From contig NZ_LT635539.1 of the NCBI RefSeq assembly GCF_900120195.1, positions 1,411,257 to 1,475,256 on the forward strand: a stretch of 64,000 nucleotides of DNA, given 5' to 3'. Positions 4,369 to 55,514 of the stretch are shown here, in pieces. This DNA is from Blautia sp. Marseille-P3087. GTDB taxonomy: Bacteria > Bacillota > Clostridia > Lachnospirales > Lachnospiraceae. Each line of letters starts with the position of its first letter. Position 1 is the first letter of the stretch. The notes below the pieces were generated by a model that saw nothing but the letters and a program-made list of their open reading frames with translations, was not told where the DNA came from and did no database searches. A program made the position numbers and the translations under genes.

Positions 4369-4495
4369 ATCGTATCTCCTTTCGGAACTTTTCTTCCTTT
4401 TACATCCATTTATACCTGTTTAAGATAAAAACTTCTTCTATTTTACCACAACCAGACAGGAATTTCCACTTTTTCACAGTCTGTTCATAGAAGAG

Positions 4496-4678
4496 AACAA
4501 AGCGGACAAGTCCCCTTCAAACTCCCTGCATCCCTCAATCTTTGATGGACTTGTTACGCTTTGCGTGCCAGATGCAGTCTGCTTTAGCAGACATATTCCT
4601 CTTGCATCTGGTCACATCCTCGCGGAGCGTTTTTGCTTTATTGGAAAATTACAGAGTAATTTCCTATAAAGCAAAAAA
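4496..4678 (-). repeat. dispersed structured repeat, copy A plus distal hairpin
   Basis: The 133-base core (4496-4629) has a first stem AAGCGGACAAGTCC/GGACTTGT..CGCTT, and a second composite stem: GTG (4565-4567) and CCAGATGCA (4568-4576) pairing with TGCATCTGG (4603-4611) and CAC (4613-4615), enclosing a perfect GTCTGCT-TT-AGCAGAC hairpin (4577-4592). It closes with CCTCGCGGAGCG. A long imperfect hairpin follows at 4631-4676. It is about 70-85 per cent identical by eye to copies at 18274 and 54140, with compensatory changes in the stems. It fills most of the 357-base gap between the DUF1002 gene and the rRNA methyltransferase gene. Strand is given relative to the flanking genes. Confidence 0.85.
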
Positions 4679-4702
4679 AGGATGCCGAAGCATCCTTTTT
4701 GC
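4674..4702 (-). terminator. intrinsic terminator of the DUF1002 gene
   Basis: The stem GGATGC-CGAA-GCATCC (4680-4695) is flanked by an A tract on the left and a T tract on the right, so it could act in both directions. On the minus strand it lies 25-50 bases after the stop codon of the DUF1002 gene. Confidence 0.85.
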
Positions 4703-4726: not shown

Positions 4727-6403
4727 TTATTCTGTATAATCCTCAGTGTATTCTTCTGTATTCTCCCCGGAAGCAGTATCTTCAGACACATTCTGCGTAT
4801 CTGTACTCTCTGTCTGAACATCTTCTCCATAAAGTTTTACGAAGAAATTCAGTGTATCGTCATACATCTTCTGTCGCACTTCCGGATCTACGCTGTAGAG
4901 AATATCATCTTCTGCCGGATCTGTCTCCGTGCTGAAGATCGTCTTTAATTCCTTATTCATCATATTAAGCTCAGTGGACAGATAAACTTCTGTTCCATCC
5001 GGTACATAGGTAGCGCCTGCATCTTTCAGAATATTCAGATAAGTTTCCAGAACCTTCTGGCTGAGTTTTTCTGCAACATCCTGATCCAGTGTTACCGGCG
5101 GCTCTGTCACATTCTCTACTACAGACTGAAGTACTGCAAGATCGCCTTCATACTCACCCTTGCAGAAGAGTTTCGCCTGGTCAAATTTTGCCTTGCTTTC
5201 TTCGGAAAGATCATCTGTATTTAAAGTATCTTCTGTATTGTCTGCCGTTTCATCTGTACCTTCACCGGATTCGTCTGTTCCTGCGTCTGTTCCATCACCT
5301 GTTGCTTCCGGAATGCCATCTGTAGAACTGTCTGTATTTTCTTCAGATCCATCCGGGGTTTCCTGCGGTGTCTCTTCTGTGGTTCCGTCCTCAGTTGTTC
5401 CATCGCCTGTTGCTTCCGGAATATTATAATCTCCGCTGTCATCGGAAGGATCTGTATTCTCGGTCTGGTTGGTATCTGCACCTGTATCTTTTGCAAGATT
5501 AGCATCCTCTGTGGAAGTCTGTTTAACATCATCGCCAAGTGCCCCGCTGTCAACGTCCTGTGTAATGTCCTCTCCTTCATCCACTGCATCGTCATCAGAA
5601 CTGTCATCAGAAGAAGTTCCGTTCTTGCTGTCTTCAAGATTCTGCTGGATATCTTCCAGAGTTTTCTTCATTTCCTGAATGTCATAGTTCTGCTGTGCGA
5701 TCTGCTGCAGAAGGGAAACGATCGTGTCAAGCTCATCCTGGCTTAAAGTGATTCCGTTCTGAACAGCAATGTTGTTTACAATGTTGTAGATTTCATCAGC
5801 ATTCTGAATATTGTCACCGATGATCTGCATTTTCGCCTGATTGATGATATTGGTTGCATTGTCCTGGCCAACCTGCTGTCCGACATTTCCTGTAACAACG
5901 ACTTCTTTCGCAGCCAGGTCTTTCTTTGTGGAATCCAGAGCCTGTCCGCTTGCAGATTCGTATGCTTTCATGACACCGGTAAGCGCACCTGTACCAGATA
6001 CTTCGTACGGGCATGCCGCAACAACTTCACAGTTGTTAACACCTGCTGTAGAAAGTGCTGTCGCGATCATATTACAGGTTACGTAATTGAGGTTCGCGGT
6101 ACGAACCTTGATACCGCCTGACTGGGTAGGTTTTACGTAAGCACAGCTTAAAGTTCTTGTTCCGATCTGTTCACTCGGAACATAATTACCGAGAAGATCG
6201 CGCTCATCCTGATTTGTAACAGTGATGACCTGTACCTGACTGGAATCTGCCTTAAAGTAGTTCATCATTGTATTCTTCTGATCCTGTGTAAGGTCTGCAC
6301 CAAGCGTTACGACCTTCGTGCCGTCAGCCATTGCCGGGACAGGAGAGCTGACTGCCAGACACATGCTGCAAAGTAACGCAACCATTAAGTTTCTTTTCTT
6401 CAT
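4727..6403 (-). CDS. secreted DUF1002 domain protein with acidic tail
   Basis: The product (558 residues from the ATG at 6403) begins with a Sec signal peptide, MKKRNLMVALLC to about PAMADG. The DUF1002 domain occupies roughly residues 30-260 (GADLTQDQKNTMMNYF, related to B. subtilis YpuA of unknown function). A 150-residue Asp/Glu/Ser/Thr/Gly-rich stretch follows, with two copies of IPEATGDGT, and then a helical C-terminal region. GGAGG seven to eight bases before MKKRN decides the start; an upstream in-frame codon would put residues before the signal peptide. It is probably exported and either released or held at the wall; no sorting motif is seen. A weak promoter and a clear terminator make it monocistronic. 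Confidence 0.85.
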   Translation of the reverse strand: MKKRNLMVALLCSMCLAVSSPVPAMADGTKVVTLGADLTQDQKNTMMNYFKADSSQVQVITVTNQDERDLLGNYVPSEQIGTRTLSCAYVKPTQSGGIKVRTANLNYVTCNMIATALSTAGVNNCEVVAACPYEVSGTGALTGVMKAYESASGQALDSTKKDLAAKEVVVTGNVGQQVGQDNATNIINQAKMQIIGDNIQNADEIYNIVNNIAVQNGITLSQDELDTIVSLLQQIAQQNYDIQEMKKTLEDIQQNLEDSKNGTSSDDSSDDDAVDEGEDITQDVDSGALGDDVKQTSTEDANLAKDTGADTNQTENTDPSDDSGDYNIPEATGDGTTEDGTTEETPQETPDGSEENTDSSTDGIPEATGDGTDAGTDESGEGTDETADNTEDTLNTDDLSEESKAKFDQAKLFCKGEYEGDLAVLQSVVENVTEPPVTLDQDVAEKLSQKVLETYLNILKDAGATYVPDGTEVYLSTELNMMNKELKTIFSTETDPAEDDILYSVDPEVRQKMYDDTLNFFVKLYGEDVQTESTDTQNVSEDTASGENTEEYTEDYTE

Positions 6404-6485
6404 ATCTTCATCCTCCATATTCTCTTCACAGGAAAATATCTTCTGCTTTCCCTGCGATTACGTATCTCTTTTATTGAATACATGT

Positions 6486-16859: not shown

Positions 16860-18248
16860 TTATTCTTTAACAAGCAGGGCTACTGCCTCTGTCCATACGG
16901 TTTCGCAGAACTGATCTACGCAGCATGCCTTTTCCAGACGGTAGCCTGCTGCAAGAAATGCCTCCAGGTCACGTGCAAGACTGGTCGCCTTACAGGAAAC
17001 ATATACGATACGGTTCACACCGTAGGAAAGGATCTTCGGCAGTGCTTTCGGATGAATACCATCACGCGGCGGATCCAGCACGATCACATCCGGCTTTTCC
17101 GTCAGGTCATCCAGAACTTTCAGAACATCGCCTGCAATGAAACGGCAATTATCCAGCCCGTTCAGCTTTGCATTTTCTCTTGCAGCTTCCACTGCATCCT
17201 CTACGATTTCTACTCCGATCACCTCTTTTGCCACCGGCGCAAGAAGCTGTGCGATCGTACCGGTACCACTGTAAAGGTCAAATACCTCCATACCGCTGGT
17301 ATTCTGAATGTATTCTCTTACAATATTATAAAGTACTTCCGCCGCCAGGGAATTCGGCTGGAAGAAAGAAAAGGTACTGATTCGGAATTTCAGTCCGAGC
17401 AGCGTCTCGTAGAAATAGTCCTGTCCATAAAGAATTCTTGTCTCATCGCTCTGCACGACATCTGATAGAGAATCATTGAGAATGTGCATGATCCCGACGA
17501 TTTTTCCTTCCAGCGGAAGGGCCAAAAGCTGTTCTTTCAGTGGTTCCAGATCATATTCCTCCTGCGTGGTCGTAACAAGATGTACAAGAATCTCACCTGA
17601 TGTTACACCACGGCGCAGCATCAGATGTCGGAGATAGCCTGTGTGCTGCAGTTTTCTGTAATAAGAAGCTCCTTTTTCTCTGAAAAACTCACGTACGCAG
17701 ATCAGAATATCGGTCATATCCTTATGCACCAATTTACAGTCATCCGTATTTAAGATGTCGTAAGTACTGCCCTTCTTGTGCAGTCCCAGAGAAAGTGGAC
17801 CGTCTTTGTACTCATCTCCAAAAGAGAATTCCATCTTGTTACGATAGCCGAACTCAATCGGACTTCCATGGATGCCTTCCCATTCGAAATCCGCCAGACC
17901 GTTCTCATCTACCTGACCACCCTGTACCAGTGCATCCTCCAGCAGTTCTTTTATCTGTGTTTCTTTCATTGCCAGCTGATTCTCATAAGACATCGTCTGA
18001 TACATGCAGCCGCCACATGCCGGAAAATTGCTGCACACCGCCTCTCTTGTCTCAAGAGGAGATTTTTCCAGAACTTCAAGGATTCGTCCCTGTGCTCTGC
18101 CGGAACGTTTTTTCTGGATCATAAAGCGTACCTTCTGTCCCGGAATTCCGTTTTTGATCAGCACTTTCTGATCGTCGATACAGACATAACCTTTATTCGG
18201 AAAGTCCACCTTTTCTATTACACCTTCGTAAATTTCACCTTTTTTCAT
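16860..18248 (-). CDS. rlmD: 23S rRNA (uracil-5-)-methyltransferase, RlmD type
   Basis: The 462-residue protein has an N-terminal TRAM domain (about 5-60; IEKVDFPNKGYVCIDD), an iron-sulfur Cys cluster (CSNFPACGGCMYQ, about 72-84), the SAM motif FDLYSGTGTIAQLLA, and the RumA-type active site DPPRDGIHPKAL with CKATSLARDL (catalytic Cys in VSCKATS). The family makes m5U in 23S rRNA; in Firmicutes a single enzyme may make one or two of these sites, so the exact position is uncertain. SD GAGGAAT precedes the ATG. Structured repeat copy B ends only 25 bases upstream of the start codon. Confidence 0.92.
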   Translation of the reverse strand: MKKGEIYEGVIEKVDFPNKGYVCIDDQKVLIKNGIPGQKVRFMIQKKRSGRAQGRILEVLEKSPLETREAVCSNFPACGGCMYQTMSYENQLAMKETQIKELLEDALVQGGQVDENGLADFEWEGIHGSPIEFGYRNKMEFSFGDEYKDGPLSLGLHKKGSTYDILNTDDCKLVHKDMTDILICVREFFREKGASYYRKLQHTGYLRHLMLRRGVTSGEILVHLVTTTQEEYDLEPLKEQLLALPLEGKIVGIMHILNDSLSDVVQSDETRILYGQDYFYETLLGLKFRISTFSFFQPNSLAAEVLYNIVREYIQNTSGMEVFDLYSGTGTIAQLLAPVAKEVIGVEIVEDAVEAARENAKLNGLDNCRFIAGDVLKVLDDLTEKPDVIVLDPPRDGIHPKALPKILSYGVNRIVYVSCKATSLARDLEAFLAAGYRLEKACCVDQFCETVWTEAVALLVKE

Positions 18249-18273
18249 TTCAATTATTCCTCATCTATTTTAA

Positions 18274-18430
18274 ATCAAAGCAGACAAGTCTCCTCAAACT
18301 ACACAACTACTTCAATCTTTGAGTGACTTGTTATGCTTTGCGCGCTAGATGCAGTCTGCTTTAGCAGACATATTCCACTTGCATCTAGTCGCATCCTCGC
18401 GGAGCGTGCTGCTCTGTCTTTGACAGAGCA
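18274..18430 (-). repeat. dispersed structured repeat, copy B plus distal hairpin
   Basis: The core (18274-18406) keeps the layout of copies A and C: AAGCA-ACAAGTC paired with GACTTGT-TGCTT, then GCG+CTAGATGCA (18342-18353) paired with TGCATCTAG+CGC (18380-18392) around GTCTGCT/AGCAGAC. Where A and C have C-G pairs at two stem positions, B has T-A, so pairing is preserved. The distal hairpin CTGCTCTGTC-TTT-GACAGAGCAG (18408-18430) is unrelated in sequence to those of A and C. It occupies nearly all of the gap before rlmD. Confidence 0.85.
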
Positions 18431-18432
18431 GT

Positions 18433-18464
18433 AAAACAGCCCCGGTTATCTGCCGGAGCTGCTG
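18433..18464 (-). terminator. terminator of the small membrane protein gene
   Basis: CAGCCCCGG (18437-18445) and CCGGAGCTG (18453-18461) pair; on the minus strand TTTTAC follows. It lies 15 bases after the stop codon at 18478. Confidence 0.75.
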
Positions 18465-53491: not shown

Positions 53492-53923
53492 TTAGATGAT
53501 GATACCCATATCCTGCATTCCCTCTGCGATACTGTCCATATCATCATAATCGCAGTTCTCGCTCCACTTTTCTTTGCTCCAAACTTCAATGCGGTTCAGA
53601 TTTCCGGTAAGTACAACGTCTTTTTCCAGACCAGCAAATTCCCGTAACGTCTGTGGTACAAGGATTCTCCCCTGCTTGTCCAGTTCACAGTTTGTCGCAC
53701 CTGCTACAAAGAAACGTGTGAAGGTTCTGGCGTTTTTATTTGTAAGTGGTAAGGCTCTGAGTTTTTCTTCAAAGGCTTTCCATTCGTCCATCGGATAAAT
53801 AGAAAGACAACCATCAAGTCCCTTGGTCAGTACGAACTCTTCTCCCAGGAGTTCCCTGAACTTGGAAGGGATGATCAGACGCCCCTTCGCGTCGATTGTA
53901 TGATTGTATTCGCCCATGAACAT
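53492..53923 (-). CDS. mraZ: transcriptional regulator MraZ
   Basis: The 143-residue protein has two AbrB-like SpoVT folds: [24 protein letters not shown] and [22 protein letters not shown]. MraZ binds direct repeats before its own gene and represses the dcw cluster; such repeats are present at 53991-54036. The ATG at 53923 gives the canonical MFMGEY start with GGTGAG before it; a GTG nine bases upstream is rejected. Confidence 0.95.
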
Positions 53924-53990
53924 TTTACTCACCTACTCTCTCAGATACGATTCTCCCCTTCGTATCCTCGGATGGAAACGGTGGAATCTG

Positions 53991-54036
53991 CCACATTCCC
54001 TCCATCTGCCACCACTATTCACCACTTTCTACCACT
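53991..54036. promoter_or_regulatory. MraZ-binding direct repeats
   Basis: On the minus strand three AGTGGT units start exactly ten bases apart (54036, 54026, 54016), followed by weaker ATGG and TGTGG units at 10-11 base steps. This matches the spaced GTGG-type direct repeats bound by MraZ. They begin about ten bases after the -10 box. Confidence 0.75.
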
Positions 54037-54045
54037 TATATTGCC

Positions 54046-54074
54046 ATTCTACCCTATTTACCCCTAAATTACAA
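54046..54074 (-). promoter_or_regulatory. promoter of the dcw cluster
   Basis: On the minus strand TTGTAA (54069-54074) is 17 bases before TAGAAT (54046-54051), upstream of the MraZ repeats. Confidence 0.65.
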
Positions 54075-54139
54075 GTGGGAATCGTAGATTTTTTCCAAAC
54101 AATTCAGTACTTTGAAAGTATTATTTTGGTTCTGTTAGA

Positions 54140-54322
54140 ACAAAGCGGACAAGTCCGCTTCAAACTCCCTGAATCCCTCAATCTTTGAGGGACTTGCTAC
54201 GCTTTGCGCGCCAGATGCAGTCTGCTTTAGCAGACATATTCCTCATGCATCTGGTCGCATCCTCGCGGAGCGTTTTTGTGTAATAGGAACATTACGGAGT
54301 AATTTCCTATTACACAAAAAAA
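54140..54322 (-). repeat. dispersed structured repeat, copy C plus distal hairpin
   Basis: The core (54140-54273) shows AAGCGGACAAGTCC paired with GGACTTG..CGCTT, an alternative hairpin TCCCTCAA/TTGAGGGA, then GCG+CCAGATGCA (54209-54220) paired with TGCATCTGG+CGC (54247-54259) around GTCTGCT/AGCAGAC, and CCTCGCGGAGCG. The distal hairpin TGTGTAATAGGAA/TTCCTATTACACA (54278-54317) shares only its inner part with that of copy A. It lies between the lgt terminator and the dcw promoter. Confidence 0.85.
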
Positions 54323-54351
54323 GCTCCCCACGTCATAAACATGGAGAACCT
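54315..54351 (-). terminator. terminator of lgt
   Basis: On the minus strand GGTTCTCCATGT pairs with ACGTGGGGAGCT imperfectly around TTATG, followed by seven T. It lies about 15 bases past the lgt stop codon. Confidence 0.8.
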
Positions 54352-54360
54352 TTTGCTCAT

Positions 54361-55461
54361 TTATTCAGTTTGATCATGATCCGATCCAGTTTCCGGCTGA
54401 GCGGAAGCTGTTTCTGAAGATCCTTCCTGCTTTTGATCTTCCGGTTCAGTCTGCTCTGAAGGTGCCGAAGTCTCCGGCCTGTCCAGAATTTCTTTGAATT
54501 CATCCTGAACATTTTCAAAGTTCTGAACATTCCCGAGTCTGCTTCCATCTGTGTTTTCGTCCGGCACATATGCCTCCTCTCTCCTGCGGCTGCGAAGTGC
54601 ATTTCGTTTTCTGGAGAGGATATGACGTACCGAAGCCGTCACTCCACAGACCAGAAAGAGCACTGCAGATACAAGAAGGGAAACGGATATTTTAGTTCCC
54701 GGAATATACAGGCTGTCCGTGCGGAGCCACTCGATTCCACATTTACCCAGTCCGTATCCGGCAAGATAACGAAGAAAAATTTCTCCCTGAAAACTTTTTC
54801 TTCTGCCAAGGATCAAAAGAACGATCAGCAGAAGAAGGCACCAGATACTCTCATAGAGAAACAGCGGATGTACCTGTATAAAAGGTTCATCAAGTACCAT
54901 CACCAGATTGTCCCTCATCTGTTTGGTCACTGCGCTGCTGTGGACCGATTCCAGTGGAATCTGCATTGCAAACAGACTGTCTGTGTACTCACCAAAGGCC
55001 TCTCTGTTAAATGCATTTCCCCATACACCTATTATCTGCCCTGTCAGCAATCCTATACTGACAGTATCTGCCATTTGCCCAAAAGAAACTTTACGTATCT
55101 TACAGTAAATAAATCCTGCCAGCGCGCCGCCGAAGATTCCTCCATATATTGCAAGTCCGCCCCCACGGATATTGATGAGTTCTGTCCATGGCTTTCCGCT
55201 GAAAGACTCCCACGAAAATGCAAGATAATACAATCTTGCACCGATCAACCCGCCGATCAGTGAGATAAGTACCATTCCCAGATAGAGATTCGGGTTTTCT
55301 TTATGCTTTCTGACCTGAAGCATTATAACTGCAAGTCCGAAAAGCATTCCAACCGCTACCAGTATCCCATATACTGTGATCTCAAATCCGAAAACCGTAA
55401 ACGACTTATTCATCCCCTCAAAATAAGCACTGATATTAGGAAATCGAATTGAAAGATTCAT
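54361..55461 (-). CDS. lgt: prolipoprotein diacylglyceryl transferase
   Basis: The 366-residue membrane enzyme attaches diacylglycerol to lipobox Cys. It has seven or so helices with the Lgt signatures GARLYYLAFSWE, RGGGLAIYGGIFGGALAGF, GNAFNREAFGEYT and HPLFLYESIWCL. After residue 285 comes a hydrophilic, Glu/Ser/Gln-rich tail of about 80 residues, longer than in the core enzyme. The ATG at 55461 with GGGAAGGTG is preferred to one 33 bases upstream. It follows ychF by 53 bases. Confidence 0.92.
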   Translation of the reverse strand: MNLSIRFPNISAYFEGMNKSFTVFGFEITVYGILVAVGMLFGLAVIMLQVRKHKENPNLYLGMVLISLIGGLIGARLYYLAFSWESFSGKPWTELINIRGGGLAIYGGIFGGALAGFIYCKIRKVSFGQMADTVSIGLLTGQIIGVWGNAFNREAFGEYTDSLFAMQIPLESVHSSAVTKQMRDNLVMVLDEPFIQVHPLFLYESIWCLLLLIVLLILGRRKSFQGEIFLRYLAGYGLGKCGIEWLRTDSLYIPGTKISVSLLVSAVLFLVCGVTASVRHILSRKRNALRSRRREEAYVPDENTDGSRLGNVQNFENVQDEFKEILDRPETSAPSEQTEPEDQKQEGSSETASAQPETGSDHDQTE

Positions 55462-55514
55462 AAAACACCTTCCCTTATTCCGGATCTTAACCAAGATCCT
55501 TTATCTGCAATCCA

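Follow-up and report, generated by a model that had tools for sequence, protein, structure and literature searches.

Group IIC introns are several hundred nucleotides long or more, contain a domain V and encode an RT. REP repeats, for which the GTAG foot of the hairpin is a hallmark, make use of a Y1 enzyme. For BOX and RUP, we know of no placement at terminator ends. Group IIC introns are reported to insert at intrinsic terminators (PMC4424553). A survey of structured RNAs in the human microbiome gives 3161 candidates, 250 of them palindromic (PMC8040213); the family described below may be among them, unnamed, and its architecture and target are not described in the part of the survey covered. 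No description of such an element was found in the literature searched; most subscription journals lay outside the coverage, so its absence is not shown.

Here we analyse a 64,000-nucleotide stretch of DNA (the window) and three repeats within it, which likely belong to a non-autonomous mobile element of about 130–190 bp, an analogue in bacteria of MITEs or SINEs that inserts, in antisense orientation, where intrinsic terminators release the transcript. A first-pass annotation had reported three copies of a structured repeat, at 4496–4629, 18274–18406 and 54140–54273 (hereafter A, B and C), together with paired base changes among them. All three are present at those positions, and the letters bear out the changes: AAGCG/CGCTT versus AAGCA/TGCTT, CCAG/CTGG versus CTAG/CTAG, and GTG/CAC versus GCG/CGC. 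The unit of about 133 bases had been located correctly but drawn too short, since it measures about 185 bp in the window; P3 and the terminator at the right end had been overlooked. Copies A and C extend rightwards past 4629 and 54273, respectively, through T5, a third long hairpin (P3) and an A-tract, to right limits at about 4679 and about 54322.

4495–4679, plus strand: copy A, whole element, with left end GAACAAAG, P1, P2 core, T5, P3 and A-tract
4630–4679, plus strand: P3 end hairpin of copy A with T5 and A-tract, beyond the coordinates first annotated
4675–4700, minus strand: intrinsic terminator (stem-loop and T-tract) of the minus-strand ORF at 4727–6418, adjoining the P3 end of copy A (terminator scan)
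18276–18433, plus strand: copy B, diverged, with core to 18406 and then an unrelated hairpin at about 18407–18433 replacing P3
18436–18464, minus strand: terminator-like hairpin beside copy B (by eye)
54138–54322, plus strand: copy C, whole element
54143–54160, plus strand: P1 hairpin of copy C, stem AAGCGGA / TCCGCTT
54199–54272, plus strand: P2 core of copy C, with long stem, apical hairpin, 3′ internal loop ATATTCC and linker GCATCCTCGCGGAGCG
54273–54320, plus strand: P3 end hairpin of copy C, TTTTTGTGTAATAGGAA ... TTCCTATTACACAAAAA (palindrome)
54322–54349, minus strand: imperfect terminator-like hairpin after the minus-strand ORF at 54361–55494, adjoining P3 of copy C (ortholog comparison, L269)

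The copies have no coding frame in common, as had been noted at first pass: no listed ORF of at least 90 aa crosses copy A, and the ORFs over B (17778–18326) and C (53904–54188) enter from the flank. The absence of a shared frame and the strong structure together rule out a decayed coding gene. The minus-strand gene after copy C, at 53492–53932 of the window, resembles mraZ by eye, without a family search; a similar promoter-like stretch is present in relatives that lack the element. The inability of the first-pass annotation to name a family also persists. Rfam 15 gives no match in the window and none to the element in 41 distinct loci, in which only two T-boxes and three riboswitches, all beside elements, exceed the gathering score; five sub-threshold hits (microRNA, L20 leader) have E values of up to 1.

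On the element strand, the parts are arranged in the order left end ((G)AACAAAG, or an A-tract followed by G), P1 hairpin, P2 core, linker, T5, P3 hairpin and the A-tract of the target terminator. P2 consists of a long stem that is capped by an apical hairpin and interrupted by an internal loop on one side only, and it bears conserved unpaired motifs. The left end reads AACAAAG in 69 of 135 copies and as an A-run before G in 25, and is unrecognised in 41; a G precedes AACAAAG in 57 of the 69, with no other fixed left flank noticed. The best-conserved unpaired stretches include GCGCGCC, ATATTCC and GCATCC...CGGAGCG, and T5 and the TAGGA/TCCTA of P3 rank equally among the best-conserved parts. 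The 183-nt unit of copy C folds at −80.7 kcal/mol on the plus strand (shuffle mean −41.5) and at −83.8 kcal/mol on the minus strand (shuffle mean −46.9), with z-scores of −10.4 and −9.5 and with 0 of 200 shuffles as good on either strand. The outer stem AAGCG/CGCTT proposed at first pass exists in the letters, but its 3′ strand can alternatively pair with CGCGGAGCG, and the minimum-energy fold favours the latter. At two loci (L053:13449–13526 and L073:412–553), the apical part of P2 is swapped for a different hairpin and the left part is retained.

Base pairing is supported by covariation across the family. Among 90 aligned copies from 86 loci, 33 of 38 base pairs show double-sided changes and the loop motifs stay fixed; the cells with double changes number 666, versus 185 in shuffles, and the covariation score is 0.491, versus 0.132 for shuffled and at most 0.109 for slid alignments. 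The alignment was fitted to the model, which inflates the paired percentage, related sequences raise such counts, and the 86 loci were of our own choosing. RNAalifold applied to the first MAFFT alignment, in which the types were out of register, missed P2, and realigning to the model resolved this. Three near-identical copies alone could not have shown covariation. The covariance-model search suggested with the first-pass annotation finds further copies in the genome and in Lachnospiraceae, and these, with the strong covariation and the behaviour of a mobile element, support its inference of selection on structure in an RNA or mobile hairpin element.

For P3, covariation must be read with more care. 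In two loci (L069:620–689; L067:696–749, reverse strand), the P3 palindrome reaches into the host terminator at one of its sides and into the element at the opposite side. The arm match in these loci runs on into the host flank, which suggests correction by template switching at the DNA level, so that P3 covariation alone is no proof of RNA function; the matching of the arms may come partly from one arm having been copied from the other, and not from selection on RNA. A separate line of evidence is the strand of wobble pairs, as hairpins kept as RNA are expected to have their non-Watson–Crick pairs as G–U on the transcribed strand. In P3, 37 such pairs are G–U on the element (plus) strand and 7 on the minus strand, whereas the terminator control has 8 on plus and 72 on minus. 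The P3 wobbles thus run opposite to those of the terminators, and it is as a structure of the plus strand that P3 is maintained or copied. For the left half, taken as P1, P2 and up to 75 nt of sequence to their left, the wobbles favour the minus strand (21 plus, 41 minus; p = 0.015), and the whole element is therefore not one plus-strand structure; P2 alone is neutral (6 plus, 5 minus), and P1 alone (3 plus, 8 minus, from 50 distinct P1 hairpins) does not reach significance.

At its P3 end, the element borders directly on the T-tract of an opposite-strand intrinsic terminator and is thus antisense to the terminated gene. A hairpin with a score of at least 14, starting within 8 nt, is found in 118 of 135 right flanks, versus 24 of 135 far-left controls and 15 of 135 shuffled right flanks; the 135 are the usable, distinct right flanks out of 146 top-ranked matches. 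The other 17 have no clear terminator, and several of them show longer-loop hairpins by eye, including copy C (L003), whose hairpin was missed by the stricter terminator scan. That of copy A scored under the listing threshold in the ortholog comparison but was found by the stricter scan. The A-run at the junction is 6–7 nt long in 93 of 135 flanks, a length common for a single T-tract, and the A-tract therefore probably belongs to the target. Coding in the right flank is on the minus strand in 84 of 108 cases and on the plus strand in 22. An Rfam scan of 40 loci places T-box leaders 12–15 nt from the P3 end at two of them (L124, L078), a c-di-GMP-I riboswitch at 23 nt (L140), a TPP riboswitch at 28 nt (L139) and a cobalamin riboswitch at about 145 nt (L057). 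These attenuators beside elements indicate that the target is likely the terminator structure rather than the gene end. T-box contexts seen by eye at L071, L107, L114 and L136 fell below the Rfam gathering score and are not counted.

Terminator-like hairpins also occur without the element at orthologous positions. For locus C, such a hairpin follows the orthologous gene in 15 of 29 relatives, with no element in the 70 nt inspected; one (L298) has a P3-like sequence, and 13 have no stop or no clear terminator; for locus A, a terminator-like hairpin without the element is present in 8 of the 17 relatives examined, out of 29 fetched.

The three copies first reported are real, but the genome contains 25 recognisable copies, whole or partial. 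Of these places, 22 come from covariance model R1 (36 matches minus 14 reverse readings of the P3 palindrome) and 3 from BLAST only; R1 was built from 16 sequences and includes P3, not P1. Nine copies are complete, at 91–100% identity over 182–183 of the 183 query bases by BLAST, three have internal deletions with both ends retained (by eye), and copy B is diverged. Twelve lack the left part, five of them consisting of P3 alone; ten of the twelve were read, and two (at 1657830 and 3053440) were classed by their match alone. Every copy except B retains P3 or at least its last bases, and of the five P3-only copies, the four that were read all adjoin terminators. Orientation switches at 2.08 Mb: the 18 copies before this coordinate all lie on the plus strand, and the 7 beyond it all lie on the minus strand (orientation of P3-only copies was taken from the better match). 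GC skew, in 20 samples, changes from negative to positive near 2.08 Mb, as at an origin, and the elements therefore face against replication, as its direction is presumed, and against most genes. The 25 copies are also biased to the origin half, all lying within 1.08 Mb (p of about 2e-5 if uniform; Kolmogorov–Smirnov p = 0.002), a bias to be read with caution, since the low-coordinate region is partly masked (6100 of 12001 bases are N in one sample).

Beyond this genome, BLAST finds a match in 20 of 61 genomes (our own and 60 relatives), all in the same genus. Three other genomes hold full-length or near-full-length subfamilies at about 77–89% identity, and the subfamilies are species-specific. 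With the covariance model, 71 of 150 genomes match, one from each of 150 genera of the host family with our own included; six of the 71 have at least 24 scored matches, counting both readings of P3. Three close relatives have no model match, and in two of them BLAST detects a left-part fragment. Across the class, 11 of 391 genomes (own included) match at 1e-5, seven from the same family and four, weakly, from outside it. Two of the outside matches (L347, L348) have the same order of hairpins by eye, a third (L349) has a P3-like hairpin only, and the fourth was not read; the model may thus fall short of the true age and breadth of the family. L347 also ends, by eye, at a terminator-like hairpin.

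An exact 21-nt core pattern occurs in at least 119 stretches of named genomes. The 80 named records among the matches listed are all Lachnospiraceae or Clostridia, for which reason we take the host family to be Lachnospiraceae; named carriers among them are Coprococcus comes, Butyrivibrio, Blautia, [Clostridium] aminophilum, Oliverpabstia and Lachnospira. A complete copy is carried on a Roseburia plasmid. Viral contigs gave no match to one exact core pattern. Two human-gut records labelled ‘Bacteriophage sp.’ match in part, and may be bacterial because they are unannotated and one has a cobalamin riboswitch.

From these patterns we infer that the element is mobile. Insertion would take place just past the T-tract of an intrinsic terminator, whatever the terminator's sequence. 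P3 would be the active end, recognised by an enzyme that we suppose is supplied in trans, T5 before P3 could recognise the target by pairing with its A-tract on one single strand, and the intermediate would probably be single-stranded RNA or DNA. The role of P3 and the single-stranded intermediate are deduced from insertion at T-tract ends, from tandem copies (tandem or nested in L184, L192 and L054), from P3-only copies at terminators and from the plus-strand structure of P3. Five of 69 left ends follow a CCTAT end, and two of those five belong to another small repeat. No pair of occupied and cleanly empty sites documents an insertion, the [Clostridium] aminophilum comparison having yielded none; by eye, and without such an empty site, no target-site duplication was seen. 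Nor was a transposase recognised by eye in the 25 largest ORF clusters near elements (903 ORFs, 119 loci), of which the largest represents an ABC transporter; translated repeats account for some of the others. An autonomous version with a transposase near its ends was considered, and no such cluster is among those 25.

How such an element would move is less certain. A relationship to IS200/IS605 (Y1, HUH) or to REP is possible, if doubtful: the element would be a hairpin-ended single-stranded DNA mobilised by Y1/RAYT in trans, with T5 and A5 as guide and cleavage sequences. The hairpins at both ends, the strand specificity of P3, ends that are not inverted repeats of each other and the lack of a visible duplication would all fit. 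However, PF01797 (Y1 transposase, Y1_Tnp) has no match in this genome, although nine copies are 91–100% alike and 17 of 37 genomes were positive in the same search; the conserved flank of the element is, moreover, on the P3 side, whereas Y1 systems have their target 5′ of the left end. One further locus touches on this relationship. At L131:1501–1647, a second hairpin, CCCCCACC...GGTGGGGG, lies inside the P3 loop and matches three plasmids. The plasmid matches, 0.04–1.4 kb from TnpB genes, speak for an IS605 connection, and the inner hairpin is possibly an IS605-type end inside the element, but it occurs in one copy only.

Rather unlikely, in our assessment, is a SINE-like retroelement, in which a plus-strand RNA with P3 as its 3′ end would be copied by an RT, of group IIC type or other, primed at the T-tract, leaving left-truncated copies. 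Its target class would be that of group IIC introns (PMC4424553). The plus-strand structure of P3 and the 12 of 25 copies that lack the left part and, B excepted, keep P3 or its last bases agree with it, but left-truncated copies are easier to find because the model includes P3 and not P1, and BLAST alone shows no clear left/right asymmetry. The genome does have two RT frames, a short one of group II type and one of 346 aa (L148:1279–2319, YADD) that is retron-like by eye and not obviously linked to the element. Across genomes, a group II maturase (GIIM) matches in 31 of the 71 genomes with the element and in 22 of the 79 without it (p = 0.06); read the other way, the element is present in 31 of 53 maturase-positive versus 40 of 97 maturase-negative genomes, a weak association. 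No maturase match exists in 14 of the 22 genomes with at least 13 scored element matches, 20 of which had been used in computing the association. The minus-strand lean of the left half also counts against a SINE-like RNA, as does the absence of any group II RNA family (domain V) from Rfam scans of the window and 41 loci. On the plus strand, A and C each have a promoter-like site some 68 nt to their left, but it is weak (9 of 12), and such sites total 3 and 2 against 0.8 and 0.7 expected, not much more than chance. Quite unlikely, again, is a SINE-like retroposon that primes on the freshly released 3′ end of a transcript, or on the matching DNA 3′ end; P3 would form the 3′ end of its RNA and the oligo-U/T tract would serve as primer, which would make any terminator or attenuator in the cell a target.

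We regard as very unlikely that the element no longer moves and serves as a functional RNA or a double-terminator module after gene ends, insulating or regulating the next gene. Strong conservation of the structure and a near-constant position would suit such a module, and after P1 the opposite strand has a T-rich tail, with at least 5 T in 8 positions in 49 of 70 cases versus 4 of 68 control 8-mers. P1 on the opposite strand followed by this tract may, as a secondary guess, be a second terminator. That evidence is partly circular, as P1 was picked by its A-rich left end, and the terminator scan finds no P1 terminator at A or C. Absence of the element from orthologous genes in many relatives, tandem copies, species-specific subfamilies and placement after T-box and riboswitch attenuators are all difficult to reconcile with a fixed module. 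Least likely of all is an ordinary MITE of a DDE transposon with the P3 arms as terminal inverted repeats, since, for all that these arms form an inverted repeat with loops of variable length and that P3-only copies exist, the left end (AACAAAG and hairpin) and the right end (P3 and A-tract) are by eye not inverted repeats of each other, no duplication is seen and no full-length partner is seen near copies. At four loci from two genomes of the same genus (L050, L059, L060, L074), several copies have next to them, or directly at their left end, remnants whose ends resemble GGATTAAGGTGTC/GACACCTTAATCC; by eye, these are a different small transposon.

A mobile element at transcript ends remains our preferred reading. 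Its interest lies in the lack of any known repeat family found to match it and in a mode of movement still to be identified. Roughly half of the genera sampled from a major gut family carry it, and its position at the ends of transcripts would affect how 3′ ends are annotated, as well as antisense transcription and genes under attenuator control. Terminator targeting could be studied with it as a small natural system, and the identity of its enzyme would reveal whether bacteria have SINE-like parasites or another hairpin-based route of transposition. Were the retroposon primed by released 3′ ends real, the family would constitute a small retroelement of a class new to prokaryotes, and its copies would record naturally where transcripts end. 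It also carries a warning, in that covariation of base pairs does not suffice to prove an RNA function where the DNA is palindromic.

Compared with known systems, the element shares a terminator target with group IIC introns (118 of 135 right flanks), but is only 130–190 bp long, gives no group II match in Rfam and is found in many carriers without a maturase match. Like REP/BIME with RAYT (Y1), it is small, high-copy, intergenic, hairpin-forming and non-autonomous, whereas it sits at the terminator end and its host genome is without a Y1 match. BOX, RUP and similar repeats of Firmicutes are likewise small and interspersed, but differ in their hosts (sequences were not compared). Placement at the terminator end is the feature that we rate as setting this element apart from other small non-autonomous structured repeats.
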